A stretch of 52,634 nucleotides of DNA, from positions 1 through 52,634 of the forward strand of contig DQPL01000055.1 in assembly GCA_015664885.1 (NCBI GenBank), in the 5' to 3' direction. The position numbers and the translations under genes are program-made. The notes beneath the pieces are model-generated. The model was not told the origin of the DNA and searched no databases. It saw nothing but the letters and a program-made list of their open reading frames with translations. Shown here piece after piece: positions 42,173 to 47,690 of the stretch (its first letter is position 1; the number at the start of each line of letters is the position of its first letter). The DNA comes from Gemmatimonadota bacterium. Lineage in GTDB: Bacteria > Gemmatimonadota > Gemmatimonadetes > Longimicrobiales > Gaopeijiaceae.

Positions 42173-42559
42173 TTAGGAGCAGGCAGCGCTCCTCGAGAGC
42201 ACCGACTCGATCCTCAGGTCGAGTATGTCGCCAGGGTCGGCCTCGATGGTGTCTGTCGTGCACTTCGGGCCAGCTAGCAGATCGATCTCGATGCGCAGGG
42301 GCTTGCTGAAATCCCACGGAATTTCCAGTACCGCCTGCTGTTTGCCAACGACTATGCCGAGGTGCTGGCGCGAGCTCGAGCCGATAGCGTAGAGTCGCGC
42401 GTCCATGAAGTTGTCGTTCTGCACGTGCACGCGGATGGTCCCCTCCGCGACTGCGTCGCGGGTGAAGGGCTGCCCGCGCTCGACTGCTCTTCCGCTTGAC
42501 GCGCAGGCCGTGATTACGACGAGCGCAGCGATCGATATCAGTGTCTTCCTCATCATCAT
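42173..42559 (-). CDS. Small putative lipoprotein of unknown function
   Basis: About 128 residues. Three consecutive ATG codons (42559, 42556, 42553) follow GGAGGTGAGGAG on the minus strand. The signal MRKTLISIAALVVITAC ends in a good lipobox. The mature part IRVHVQNDNFMDARLYAIG ... LEIPWDFSKPLRIEIDLLAG looks like an all-beta domain, with three more cysteines (KCTTD and AACS). I do not recognise the family with certainty. It is convergent with the NamZ-like gene. Confidence 0.7.
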   Translation of the reverse strand: MMMRKTLISIAALVVITACASSGRAVERGQPFTRDAVAEGTIRVHVQNDNFMDARLYAIGSSSRQHLGIVVGKQQAVLEIPWDFSKPLRIEIDLLAGPKCTTDTIEADPGDILDLRIESVLSRSAACS

Positions 42560-42602
42560 CTCCTCACCTCCGGAGCCAGCCACCGTTTCAGTATACGACG
42601 CA

Positions 42603-42914
42603 TGAGGACGGGGAATAACCACCTGCGATGGCCCCACGCTGCTGCGCGCGGAGGCGTCCTATCACGCAACGGTGCTCTTGGATGAGCCGGCAGAGGAAGG
42701 GGCCTACCGTCAGGTGCTCGAGGCGTACCCCGACGACGCGACCGCACCTAAGAATCGCAGCCTGATTCTCGAAAATCGTGGCGAGTTCGCTGAGGCGGCC
42801 GGAATGCTGGAACACGCGCTGTCCACTCCCAACCAAACGCGCGTCCAATATCTGAACCTCATCGAGGTGCTGCTGCGACAGGGCTTAGCGGACTCTGCGC
42901 AGGTCGTACAGTAG
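42603..42914 (+). pseudogene. TPR-containing protein fragment
   Basis: An open frame with LLRAEASYHATVLLDEPAEE, GAYRQVLEAYPDDATA, LILENRGEFAEAAGMLEHAL and RVQYLNLIEVLLRQGLADSA, which reads as about two tetratricopeptide repeats. No start or ribosome site is convincing (GTG 42672 is internal to the repeat), and it stops after only 80-100 codons. It looks like a scrap of a larger TPR protein, for example the C-terminal part of a kinase or secretion-associated protein. Confidence 0.5.
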
Positions 42915-42944: not shown

Positions 42945-44531
42945 CTAGGCCTTGATGAGACCCCTCTGCTTCAGCTCTTCATCGAAGGCGACGAGCTCGT
43001 AGTCGTCCTCGAAGCCGATCTTGTCGAGCGCCGGTAGGTAGCGGCCGAAATCGGTCTCACTTTCGGTGAGTTCGCGATCGAAGAGAGCGAGTTCACGCTC
43101 TCCGGCCTCGGCGGCGGAGTCGCTGGTGGAGAAGACGATCTCCCCGAGTGTCCGGTTTTCGAGCTGTAACTTCCGACGCACGGTCTCACTGGCTGTGAAC
43201 TGCTGACGGAGAGCCGGGAAGGTGTAGCGCGTGTCTCCGGCGTCGTCGACTGCCACGGCGGCGTCGAGCTCGGCCGCCAACCCCTGAAGCGCCGCATCCA
43301 CGGCTGCCCGCTCGACGACCTGCTGCTTTAGGCGGGAGACCACATGCTCGTATGCCTCTGCGGCGCCGACGTCGCGACCTTTGTCCAGAGATCGACTGTA
43401 CACCAGACCGAGCAGAACTCGACGGATGTTCTGTTTCTCCCGGCGCTTGTTCTCACGGGTCACGCCCCACATGCGCAGGAGAGGAACTCCGTAGAAAAGG
43501 ACACTGAAGACGACCGGTATCAGGATTAGCCCAACCACGGCGACGGGATCGCTGAGGCTAATCCCGAGCCTCGGAAAGATGAACCACGGCGACGTGGCGG
43601 CCGCGACCAGCGTGAAACCGTTCATGCCGGCGACGACCGCGTTGGCGCCCGCGGTGTTGCCGGTCAGCTCCTGCTTGTGCTCGAGGCGCAGCCAAGCTGG
43701 GTTGGGCTCGCGCGCTTTCGTGTCGTGGGCGCTGAGCATCAGTTCGGGAAAAGCGTACACTAGTTCGCCGTCCGGCGAGACCGCCGCTTCGCCGTCGTAC
43801 GCGCCGAGCAAACGTCCCATTTCGTCCTCGGCCTCCGGGAACGTGAGCGCGGTGTGCTCCACCAGCTCGGCGGTTGTGATGACTCCCTTGCGAGCTCGGA
43901 TGAGTCGGATCGTGCTGCGATCGAGCTGGGCCTGAGTCGGGGTCGGCTTGTCGGGCCCGAACACAAAGGCGAAGACCTTCTTGTAAAAGGGTGGCCGGTC
44001 TTCCTTAGCGAGCGTGCCTTCCCAGCGACGACCGTAGTACGGTCGGCCGAGTCTCCAGCGCGGCGTCCAGATGTAGTACCAGAGCCAGAAGTTGCCGAAG
44101 CCGCCGTGCCTGTGACCCCCGCCTCTCCGTCCGCCCAGGATGCCGCCCCCGCGCGAGTTACTATTCTTGTTCGCAAAGAGCGCCGCGATCACCAGCGCCA
44201 CGAAGATGAGGAAGTAGACGACCAACATGATCACGATCGTGGCCTTGAAGCCCTTTGTGAACACATCGGTGGCGGTGCGCTTCATGCGCGCGAGCACGGG
44301 CTCCGTTCCGCGCACGATCAGCTTCTCGTCGAACTCGTAGAGCAGTTCACCGGTGTCGGAGACCGCCAGGTGCCCTTGGTGCGACTCCAGCAGCACCTTG
44401 AGTCCCGAGCGCACATTGTCCCCGGGCAGACCGGAATCCGCGACGACATCTCCTACTGTGCCTCGGCCTTGTAGGCGCCGAAGTGAGGCGAGGATGTCGG
44501 ATTGGTGCTCGGCGAGGGTGAGCGTGCTCAC
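42945..44531 (-). CDS. Unrecognised membrane protein with three winged-helix-like repeats
   Basis: 528 residues. Three similar segments end in the same strand pattern: residues 24-71 (TVGDVVADSGLP to DTGELLYEFDEKL), 215-265 (ITTAELVEHTALTFPEAEDE to DGELVYAFPELM) and about 388-443 (AAEAYEHVVSRLKQQVVE to GDTRYTFPALRQ). Each resembles a winged helix with a beta-hairpin wing. Between them lie a membrane helix (97-119), a Gly/Arg/His-rich stretch and a Trp/Tyr-rich stretch (FWLWYYIWTPRW, 148-159), then two more helices (about 297-317 and 328-349). It may be a membrane-anchored sensor or nucleic-acid binder; no function is known to me. Confidence 0.8.
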   Translation of the reverse strand: MSTLTLAEHQSDILASLRRLQGRGTVGDVVADSGLPGDNVRSGLKVLLESHQGHLAVSDTGELLYEFDEKLIVRGTEPVLARMKRTATDVFTKGFKATIVIMLVVYFLIFVALVIAALFANKNSNSRGGGILGGRRGGGHRHGGFGNFWLWYYIWTPRWRLGRPYYGRRWEGTLAKEDRPPFYKKVFAFVFGPDKPTPTQAQLDRSTIRLIRARKGVITTAELVEHTALTFPEAEDEMGRLLGAYDGEAAVSPDGELVYAFPELMLSAHDTKAREPNPAWLRLEHKQELTGNTAGANAVVAGMNGFTLVAAATSPWFIFPRLGISLSDPVAVVGLILIPVVFSVLFYGVPLLRMWGVTRENKRREKQNIRRVLLGLVYSRSLDKGRDVGAAEAYEHVVSRLKQQVVERAAVDAALQGLAAELDAAVAVDDAGDTRYTFPALRQQFTASETVRRKLQLENRTLGEIVFSTSDSAAEAGERELALFDRELTESETDFGRYLPALDKIGFEDDYELVAFDEELKQRGLIKA

Positions 44532-44571: not shown

Positions 44572-46062
44572 CTACGATGTTTCGCTGGAGGTCCTTCCAG
44601 CTTCCTCTATCAACGCTACCACGGCCTCGCTCGCGGTGTCTTCGGTCACGATGGCCAGTCCGACGTACATCCCGGTGGACAGCAGCATCGCCGGGAAGAT
44701 TTCATGAATGATCTCAGACCCCGGCGCGAAGTCCCAAGCGAGAAGCACCACGATCCCAGTAACGAAGGACCCCACGACGGCGGTCCCGCTCCCCCGCTTC
44801 CAGTGCAGACCCAGTACGAGCGCCGGGAAGAAGCACGCGCCGTAGAGTGCCCCACTGAAGGCGGTCAACTCCACGATACCCCCCAAGGGGTTCAGCGAGA
44901 TGAGCATCGTGATGAAGGCGAACAGCGCCACCCATCCACGCGTCCAGAACATCTCCTGTTCCTCGCTGCGGCCAGGCCGGATAATACTTACCACGTCCCG
45001 CTCGGTGGTCGATGCCAATACGAGCAAGACGCTGTCGAGCGACGACATTGCGGCCGCGACCATGGCCACCAGCAGGAACGCGCTCGTGCCTTGCCCGAAC
45101 ACTTCAGCGAGCAGGTTCGGGATCACGAGGTCCGTATCCTCGATCCCGTCGGGAAAGATCCGTCGCGCGTAGATCCCGATGGGGATCAGCAGCGAAAAGA
45201 CCGCGGCGAACGTCAGAGACGACACCCACATGCCGGTCCGTATGGCTTTTTCGCCCTCCAGCGCGAAGAAGCGTGACAGCTGACGGGGCTCGACCGCGAA
45301 CTTGATGAGCCCCGCCACCATCGTCCCGATCAGGACTGGGACCGCTACGCCGCCTCCCCACGTAAAGAGCGCTTCGCCGCCTGGCTGTGTGCGGACCTCG
45401 GTGATGGAGCCGAGTCCGCCGGCCGCGTTCACCGTCCCGAAGAAGAGCAGCACCGCGGCGACGATCATGACCACGCCCTGGACCGCATCGGTCTTCACGA
45501 CCGAGATGAAGCCGCCGACCATCGTATACGTCATGACGATGAAGAAGACGATGACGATGGAGATCTTGTACGGGATTTCGAGGAAGACTTCGAGCAGGTT
45601 GCCAATGCCCTTGAAGACCGCGGTCATGTAGAAGAGCGAGGCAGCGATAACGATGAGCGCGGCGAAGATGCGGGCGGTAGTGCTATCGAAGCGGAGTCCG
45701 ATGAAGTCGGGCACCGTCAATGAATCCATCGCTGCGGTAAAACTGCGCAGCCTCGGAGCGACCACGATCCATGCGAAGAGGCAAAAAGCGACCGACATAG
45801 GGATGAACAACAGCCACGGCAACCCCCAATCGTATGTGCGGCCGCTGAAGCCCACGAACGAATTCGTGCTCGCGTATGTCGCGAAAAACGAGAGGCCGAT
45901 GACCCAGCCACCCATGTTGCGGCCGCCGACGTAGTAGTCGGAGAGGTCCTTCGTCTTCTTGTTCCCGCTCCAGGCGTGGTGCGCGAGTATGACGGTGTAG
46001 AGTGCCAGCAGCGTATACACCATCCAGTACTCGCGCAGGTTGGCAAGCACAGCGTCGATCAT
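44572..46062 (-). CDS. Sodium:solute symporter (SSS family)
   Basis: 496 residues from ATG 46062, preceded by GGGGAGCGA. It has about 13 hydrophobic segments. Signatures are LSDYYVGGRNMGGWVIGLSF, FATYASTNSFVGFSGRTYDW, VPDFIGLRFDSTTARIFAAL, YTMVGGFISVVKTDAVQGVV and VAMVAAAMSSLDSVLLVLAS (the SSS core with the Na2-site serines). The substrate is unknown. It is downstream of a MatB-like acyl-CoA synthetase on the same strand (107 bases apart), so a short carboxylic acid taken up and then activated is a reasonable guess. Confidence 0.9.
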   Translation of the reverse strand: MIDAVLANLREYWMVYTLLALYTVILAHHAWSGNKKTKDLSDYYVGGRNMGGWVIGLSFFATYASTNSFVGFSGRTYDWGLPWLLFIPMSVAFCLFAWIVVAPRLRSFTAAMDSLTVPDFIGLRFDSTTARIFAALIVIAASLFYMTAVFKGIGNLLEVFLEIPYKISIVIVFFIVMTYTMVGGFISVVKTDAVQGVVMIVAAVLLFFGTVNAAGGLGSITEVRTQPGGEALFTWGGGVAVPVLIGTMVAGLIKFAVEPRQLSRFFALEGEKAIRTGMWVSSLTFAAVFSLLIPIGIYARRIFPDGIEDTDLVIPNLLAEVFGQGTSAFLLVAMVAAAMSSLDSVLLVLASTTERDVVSIIRPGRSEEQEMFWTRGWVALFAFITMLISLNPLGGIVELTAFSGALYGACFFPALVLGLHWKRGSGTAVVGSFVTGIVVLLAWDFAPGSEIIHEIFPAMLLSTGMYVGLAIVTEDTASEAVVALIEEAGRTSSETS

Positions 46063-46169
46063 TCGCTCCCCAGGGCGCAGATCGTGATCAGGAGCCCCAC
46101 AAGACCCCAGTTGAGAGGTCGGCGCAAGCCGCGTCGCGCGCAGTCCGGCAAAAGGGCTCGCGTAAGGCG

Positions 46170-47690
46170 CTAATCGACATCGCGCAGGTCGAAGAGTTCC
46201 ACTACAGTGGGCTTGGTGACCTTGCCCATGGCGTTCCGCGGCAACGCGTCCACCAGAATGATCTGCTTGGGCACCTTGTAGGGTGCGAGGCGCTCCCGCG
46301 CGAAGCCGCGCAGCGCGTCCACGTCGAGCGGGTGAGAAGCCTCGCAAACGACTGCCGCGCAAACACGATCGCCCCAATCCGCGTCCGGGACACCGACCAC
46401 GGCGCAGTCCACGACTCCGGTGTAGGATCGCAGCACGTCCTCGATTTCCAGCGCGGATATCTTCTCGCCGCCGGTCTTGAGGATGTCCACGCTCGCGCGA
46501 CCGAGGATGCGGTACGCGCCGTCCTCGACCACCGCCTGGTCACCTGTATTGAACCAGTCCTCTTCAGCGAACGCATCTTGCGTCTCCTGCTCACGCCTCC
46601 AGTAGGTTGAGAAGACGGTCGGACCTCGTACCTGGATCTCACCCTCGGCGCCGGCCGCTACCGGTCTGCCGGCTTCGTCAACGAGACGGACATCGATCCC
46701 TGGTAGTGGCTGGCCCACATGACCCGCGCGCCTTTCCCCATTGAGCGGATTGGAGAGCGCCATCCCGATCTCGGTCATGCCGTACCGCTCGAGCAGTCGT
46801 TGCCCGGTGATCTCCTGCCAGCGCTCCAGTGTGGGCACGGGCAGTGCAGCGGATCCGGATACCATGAGCCGGCAAGCCAACGCCCCGGCGCTCCAGGCCT
46901 CTCTCGTTGCCGGGTCGGCGCGTTGCCACGCCTCTAGGAGCCGTCGGTATACGGTCGGCACCGCCATGTAGAGCGTGCAGTCCCCCCGGGATAGGCGTTC
47001 CCATACGTCGACGGCGTTGAACCGCGACAAGATCTCGCAGGTGGCGCCGTTCCAAAGCGCCGAGGTCAGTATGTTCGTAATGCCGTGCACGTGGTGCAGA
47101 GGGAGATGCAGTAGAATGTGATCGTGCTCGCTCCAACCCCAGGCGTCGCTCAGCGACGAGACTTGCGCTTGCAGGTTGCCGTGCGTGACCACGACCCCCT
47201 TGGGCCGCCCCGTGGTACCGGACGTGTAAAGCATCATAGCCGACCTGTCCGCGGCCAGGTCCGGAAGCACGCCGGTGGGCCCTTCGGCAAGTAGAGCGGG
47301 CGTCTGGAGAACCGGCAGCTGGCGCTCGGCGGCGACGCCCGAGACTCGGTCGATCAAGTCCGGATGTGCGACGACTGCTTCGGGCGAAGCGTCGTCGAGC
47401 ACGTATGCGAGCTCCGCCGCCGGGTGCGAAGTCGCGAGCGGCACCGCGAGGCCGCCCGACCGCCATATGCCCCACTGGACCGCGACGTGGTGCCAACCCG
47501 GAGGCACGAGGTAGCAAATGCGTTCGGAGTCCAGGTCGTCGCGCCCCGCGAGCAACCGAGTGGCCACCCACCCGGACGCATCAAGCAGCTCGCCGAAATT
47601 GAAGGCCCCTTCGGGGGCTACGATCGCCGTCCTCTCTCGAATCCCGGCGGCACGCTCAAATAGAGGTAGCTTCAACGAGGTTCTTGGCAA
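46170..47690 (-). CDS. MatB/ACSF3-like malonyl-CoA synthetase family protein
   Basis: 506 residues of the adenylate-forming superfamily. Motifs: P-loop YTSGTTGRPKGVVVTHGN, LPLHHVHGITNILTSALWNG, YGMTEIGMALSNPL, FNTGDQAV, and the C-terminal LGRASVDILKTGGEKISALE plus PRNAMGKVTKPT (catalytic lysine). SVDILKTGGEKISALEIE is close to the signature of MatB/ACSF3 enzymes that make malonyl- or methylmalonyl-CoA, but the residue after GG is Glu rather than Tyr, so other short acids remain possible. Gene order with the SSS transporter supports an uptake-and-activation pair. Confidence 0.85.
   Translation of the reverse strand: MPRTSLKLPLFERAAGIRERTAIVAPEGAFNFGELLDASGWVATRLLAGRDDLDSERICYLVPPGWHHVAVQWGIWRSGGLAVPLATSHPAAELAYVLDDASPEAVVAHPDLIDRVSGVAAERQLPVLQTPALLAEGPTGVLPDLAADRSAMMLYTSGTTGRPKGVVVTHGNLQAQVSSLSDAWGWSEHDHILLHLPLHHVHGITNILTSALWNGATCEILSRFNAVDVWERLSRGDCTLYMAVPTVYRRLLEAWQRADPATREAWSAGALACRLMVSGSAALPVPTLERWQEITGQRLLERYGMTEIGMALSNPLNGERRAGHVGQPLPGIDVRLVDEAGRPVAAGAEGEIQVRGPTVFSTYWRREQETQDAFAEEDWFNTGDQAVVEDGAYRILGRASVDILKTGGEKISALEIEDVLRSYTGVVDCAVVGVPDADWGDRVCAAVVCEASHPLDVDALRGFARERLAPYKVPKQIILVDALPRNAMGKVTKPTVVELFDLRDVD

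Follow-up and report, generated by a model that had tools for sequence, protein, structure and literature searches.

A gene from a Gemmatimonadota bacterium appears to encode a membrane protein with three homologous winged-helix repeats, and our tentative preference is for a role as a membrane-tethered, protein-docking scaffold over one as a membrane transcription factor. The gene lies within a window (the whole stretch of DNA that was analysed) of 52,634 nt. An earlier note, made from the sequence letters, had described its product as an unfamiliar membrane protein.

Table 1. Coordinates of the gene, the segments of its product, and two adjoining genes (positions in the window).
Feature	Residues	Positions	Strand	Basis or remark
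Whole gene, 528 aa, GTG start		42945..44531	(-)	ORF; dN/dS; homologs
Winged helix 1	3-68	44328..44525	(-)	AlphaFold2 model; VIA-align Z up to 9.8; HTH_IclR hits in relatives
Membrane helix 1 (TM1)	98-120	44172..44240	(-)	hydropathy in 20/20 members; helix 79-122 in model
Gly/Arg/His-rich stretch	123-147	44091..44165	(-)	composition
Trp/Tyr-rich patch; possible interfacial or re-entrant segment	148-166	44034..44090	(-)	aromatic count
Most conserved family motif, PFYKKVFAFVFGPDKP	181-196	43944..43991	(-)	conservation 0.91 vs mean 0.67, 20 members
Winged helix 2	200-262	43746..43934	(-)	hhalign with repeat 1 98.3%; model pLDDT ~60; VIA-align Z 9.0 row; HTH_IclR hits in relatives
Pre-membrane motif P-x-PAW-x-R-x-E ... 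LTGN	276-292	43656..43706	(-)	P276, E284, T290, G291, N292 invariant in 20 members
Membrane helix 2	294-321	43569..43652	(-)	model; hydropathy
Membrane helix 3	329-352	43476..43547	(-)	model (helix 329-366); hydropathy
Strongly basic stretch past helix 3	353-371	43419..43475	(-)	charge count
Winged helix 3	369-439	43215..43427	(-)	hhalign 94.5% vs repeat 1, 95.5% vs repeat 2; model pLDDT ~70-81
C-terminal motif G-x-I-V-[YF]-S-T-x-D-S ... RELAxFDREL	463-489	43065..43145	(-)	conserved in 20 members; in short paralogs by eye
Sodium:solute symporter (SSF)		44572-46107	same as gene
AMP-binding acyl-CoA synthetase		46173-47690		same gene order with SSF and gene

The gene and its three repeats

The proposed ORF of 528 amino acids is present and is a working gene, because its dN/dS ratio is 0.11 against a relative from the same genus (L002; 526 codons), as expected under purifying selection. 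Matches at E ≤ 0.001 occur in 20 of 59 related genomes, and the one in G020 is a single-repeat hit. A profile of 20 members matches 102 of the 395 Gemmatimonadota genomes sampled. Full-length relatives, defined as matches that span at least about 490 positions of the model, are found in 66 of the 395 genomes, a number counted by hand from the profile-match rows and from which a gene split across two contigs (G168) and a partial one (G398) are left out. These 66 genomes comprise 55 from the window's family, one from a sister family, and 10 from one genus of a third family; the remaining profile matches are mostly short paralogs or single-repeat hits. We regard the proteins as a conserved, uncharacterised family whose function we infer from the evidence presented below.

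The description of three winged-helix-like repeats is borne out by profile, model, and fold comparison, with the model of repeat 2 at low confidence. When profiles cut from 20 homologs were compared by hhalign, repeat 1 paired with repeat 2 at 98.3% (P 1.3e-14) and with repeat 3 at 94.5% (P 7e-8), and repeats 2 and 3 paired at 95.5% (P 1.5e-8). The highest value in nine control comparisons of repeats with non-repeat parts of the protein was 3.5%. Judged by these profiles, the three segments are homologous repeats. They were located correctly from the outset, and the ranges then assigned to them prove slightly short because each gains a first helix (giving about 3-68, 200-262, and 369-439).

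Structure prediction, which had been suggested as a check, yields the same fold in all three segments and not unrelated folds. AlphaFold2, run with six sequences, places a helix-helix-helix-beta hairpin at residues 3-66, 200-260, and 369-437. Repeats 1 and 3 have a confidence of about 70-83 and repeat 2 one of about 55-64; the mean pLDDT is 52.2 for the full-length protein and 45.1 for a separate model of residues 140-300, which was set aside. A Foldseek search returned nothing at E values up to 0.001, and its list is rich in winged-helix proteins, including RNA polymerase III subunit RPC62, MukBEF, Z-alpha, MarR, and SelB. Comparison with winged helices by VIA-align gave Z scores that reach 9.8 in repeat 1 and 9.0 in repeat 2, with MarR and Fur among rows that mostly span residues 1-79, include repeat 2 in few cases, and barely cover repeat 3.

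Sequence comparisons point to the same fold. The Pfam family HTH_IclR touches 14 of the 20 members, mostly weakly (best E 2.9e-7 among the 20), and in members examined singly it falls on repeat 1 or 2, with a best score of 20.4 bits vs a cut-off of 22. The window protein itself has no IclR/MarR-type Pfam match at E values up to 1. Weak Pfam relatives of a single repeat are HTH_IclR, MarR_2, and TrmB, and a single-repeat profile search retrieves EutK chain 3i71 (E 1.2e-4) and a row of winged-helix regulators that includes ArsR/AsnC/IclR chains. The winged-helix reading is sound for repeats 1 and 2; for repeat 3, the predicted fold follows from homology and the model. IclR/MarR-type domains (PF09339, PF12802) resemble the repeats in fold and, weakly, in sequence, whereas the window protein differs from them in lacking a basic wing, in carrying three copies, and in having membrane helices between these copies.

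Membrane segments and topology

Repeats 1 and 2 had been proposed to be separated by one membrane helix, and repeats 2 and 3 by two. This arrangement matches the model, and a hydropathy scan finds TM1 in all 20 members and resolves helices 2 and 3 as separate in eight of them. The Gly-rich stretch and the aromatic patch are likewise present as claimed, with glycine making up 0-52% of the former across the 20 members and the latter holding 8.9 Trp, Tyr, or Phe per ~25 residues. The most distant full-length member (L019 / L069, from G041) has no glycine in this region, and a longer hydrophobic segment there replaces the Gly/aromatic stretch. Conservation among the 20 members is strongest at the membrane-side motif PFYKKVFAFVFGP (0.91 vs a mean of 0.67) and is lower in the recognition helices of repeat 1 (0.66) and repeat 2 (0.77).

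With helices 2 and 3 between them, repeats 2 and 3 would lie on the same side of the membrane. By the positive-inside rule this side is probably cytoplasmic, because the stretch after helix 3 is basic (residues 352-371 average 8.7 Lys plus Arg vs 1.4 Asp plus Glu in 20 members). The flanks of TM1 are both positive, with 4.7 and 4.2 Lys plus Arg. Since there is one clear helix between repeats 1 and 2, these two modules could face opposite compartments if the aromatic patch does not dip back into the membrane.

Short paralogs of ~400 aa have three winged helices and, by eye, are without TM1, the Gly stretch, and the FVFG motif. Hydropathy reveals no hydrophobic segment before repeat 2 in the five that were examined (L072-L076), and repeats 1 and 2 must therefore share a side in these proteins. 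By analogy, we expect both repeats to be on the same side in the window protein too, with the aromatic patch re-entrant or at the surface. Among the short paralogs, L076 has zero hydrophobic segments and may be soluble. Another locus, L077 (G173:C32), carries stop codons inside its profile match.

Polar residues beside the membrane are invariant (E284, T290, G291, N292, R353, N368, and R370), as they could be if the protein were active as a transporter or membrane enzyme in its own right, capped by winged helices of purely structural use. Such an activity is unlikely for a protein with just three membrane helices, and no match to a known enzyme or transporter was found. Furthermore, the short paralogs retain the winged helices and lose TM1, and in L076 every hydrophobic segment is gone.

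Candidate partners of the modules

The earlier note had supposed that the protein could sense a signal and bind DNA or protein at the membrane. Nothing was found in favor of signal sensing, and the charge of the repeats bears on the choice between DNA and protein. For comparison, MarR domains were taken from 19 of 25 loci in related genomes (L112, L113, L114, L116, L118, and L120 were left out). The wings of all three repeats are short and acidic, and none is a basic wing of the type that contacts DNA. They carry 0.55, 0.55, and 1.35 Lys plus Arg in repeats 1-3 vs 4.26 in the 19 MarR domains, and each has a net charge of -2.25 vs +1.42. The net charge of the recognition helix is -3.1 in repeat 2 and -2.6 in repeat 3 vs -0.68 in MarR; the corresponding value for repeat 1 (-0.45) is no lower than in MarR, and helix 3 of this repeat contains 2.7 Lys plus Arg. 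Entire domains have charges of -2.75 to -4.3 vs -0.11 in the MarR set. The acidity of the wings, and of the recognition helix in both repeat 2 and repeat 3, disfavors DNA binding, whereas the charge of repeat 1 would be compatible with DNA contact by this module.

Membrane-tethered transcription regulators, of which ToxR and CadC are examples, offer one precedent. In a protein of this kind, one or more winged helices would sit on promoter DNA while the membrane part senses a signal. Indeed, the nearest fold and sequence relatives of a single repeat are mostly DNA-binding proteins (HTH_IclR, MarR_2, TrmB, ArsR/AsnC/IclR, MarR, and Fur), and the basic residues in helix 3 of repeat 1 would fit this role. 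Against it stand the short acidic wings throughout and the negative domain charge, and no ligand-binding domain was found by using Pfam and NCBIfam. We therefore consider a regulator fairly unlikely.

Docking of proteins is favored over ordinary DNA binding because the wings and two of the three recognition helices are acidic and because conservation peaks at the membrane-side motif. From this we infer that the ligand is protein rather than DNA and that the role is that of a scaffold. The product would be a polytopic inner-membrane protein whose three winged-helix modules dock one or more partner proteins, with at least the second and third modules facing the cytoplasm. The modules might be held against the bilayer, or partly within it, by the aromatic patch together with the motifs next to the membrane (FYKKVFAFVFGP, LTGN). 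Four points speak against a scaffold, which are that the charge of the repeat 1 recognition helix resembles that of MarR, that repeats 1 and 2 might be separated by the membrane, that no partner gene is conserved nearby, and that overall AlphaFold confidence is low (52.2).

The scaffold reading gains support from the recurrence of the module on unrelated membrane anchors. All 16 small proteins that were fetched for matching carry a single C-terminal module. By eye and hydropathy, eight of these have two plain membrane helices, five have a TM2-like domain, and three have zinc ribbons. Pfam TM2 is above its cut-off in each of the four TM2-type proteins scanned; two of the three zinc-ribbon types were also scanned, with L088 over the zinc-ribbon cut-off and L085 just below it. 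The window's genome encodes a protein of 266 aa (L133) that is of the zinc-ribbon type by eye and has the module at 196-258. No TM2 domain was found in this genome, and a genome of the same genus has one with the module (L087). These TM2, two-helix, and zinc-ribbon proteins (L079-L094, L133-L140) resemble the window protein in placing the same module, with its D-x-G-x-x-x-Y-x-F-type ending, beside membrane helices. They differ in that the module is present in one copy, is C-terminal, and is joined to other anchors. A single phylum appears to reuse, on several types of anchor, a membrane-tethered winged-helix module that is unnamed in the family libraries searched, and the C-terminal version that caps small membrane proteins might merit definition as a separate family.

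The ESCRT-II subunit SNF8/VPS22 uses winged helices in tandem for protein docking at membranes, within a complex that recruits ESCRT-III. In bacteria and plastids, an ESCRT-II counterpart might take the form of an anchored winged-helix tandem that recruits or organizes PspA/IM30 (VIPP1), the bacterial relative of ESCRT-III, at the inner membrane, with the single-module proteins as simpler relatives. SNF8/VPS22 does share the winged helix (a VIA-align row at Z 8.5; E 0.019 with the single-repeat profile), but other winged helices score equally well or better and sequence-level membership is absent. PspA/IM30 is present in 65 of the 66 full-length genomes vs 278 of the 329 remaining genomes (Fisher p 0.001 with kinship ignored; the 65 were counted by hand), a co-occurrence that is weakly compatible with an ESCRT-II-like role. 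PspA/IM30 is nearly ubiquitous, and one genome that carries the gene, G240, lacks any PspA match. On balance, we judge this counterpart to be highly improbable.

A plant relative and the gene neighborhood

The claim that no described family has this layout stands as far as whole-protein matches are concerned, because none was found among Pfam, NCBIfam, and PHROG families or PDB chains. It may fall short with regard to an uncharacterised family of plants and cyanobacteria. Arabidopsis At5g03900 and its cyanobacterial relatives probably have the same layout as the window protein, with two winged helices. At5g03900 would have a winged helix, a membrane helix, an aromatic patch, the motif F-x-x-x-V-F-x-F-V-F-G, and a second winged helix, then two membrane helices and a C-terminal I-V-Y-S-T motif. 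A provisional version of its sequence, which makes the kinship a tentative one, scores 131 bits against the 20-member profile and, unlike the window protein, is without the third winged helix. The family may therefore resemble an uncharacterised protein of the chloroplast inner envelope, and the word "unfamiliar" would apply to the function of the protein and not to the existence of its family. A scan of plasmids and viral contigs with the provisional sequence found no relatives.

PMC3565376 describes At5g03900 as an inner-envelope protein with two membrane helices and a function still to be explored, and labels it "Iron-sulfur cluster biosynthesis family protein". This label is the sole basis for viewing the window protein as an iron-sulfur cluster assembly protein. 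No A-type Fe-S scaffold Pfam match occurs at E values up to 1, and 18 of the 20 members have no Cys. The 20 members share no Cys column and so can have no metal or Fe-S site formed by Cys, which refutes a cysteine-bound cluster for the family and makes a part in cluster assembly extremely improbable. A literature search uncovered nothing on three-winged-helix, membrane-anchored, inner-envelope, or TM2-linked winged-helix proteins, on PTHR47380, or on the Fe-S family name. If the link to At5g03900 is true, a culturable bacterial relative would open a genetic route to an unexplored, plastid-conserved protein.

A link to photosynthesis, prompted by the possible plastid relative, was rejected for the phylum, as Photo_RC occurs in just one full-length genome (G305) out of 66. 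Photo_RC exceeds its cut-off in 44 of the 395 phylum genomes, in families f1, f4, and f5.

The proposed survey of homologs and their neighbors, which covered 15 full-length loci for the neighbors, disclosed no constant partner gene. An SSF gene lies on the same strand, separated by a gap of 40 bases, and the order AMP-binding, SSF, gene recurs at four of the 15 full-length loci (the window, L059, L060, and L062). The protein could be an accessory subunit of the adjoining symporter or acyl-CoA synthetase, but the cluster is absent from the other 11 loci, and such a function is very unlikely. Neighbors elsewhere include thioredoxin, alpha/beta hydrolase, AAA ATPase, or glutamyltranspeptidase genes. 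A conserved operon was rejected because no partner is constant across lineages in the 15 loci, for which a crude gene picker was used that missed the gene itself in L061 and L067. A small lipoprotein-like family is encoded beside the gene in the window (42173-42637), in L060 (11648-12459), and in L062 (8327-9216). By eye, its members carry the motif N-x-N-F-x-[DE]-x-x-[LVI]-[YWF]-A/V-[IM], and they form tandem pairs in L060 and L062.
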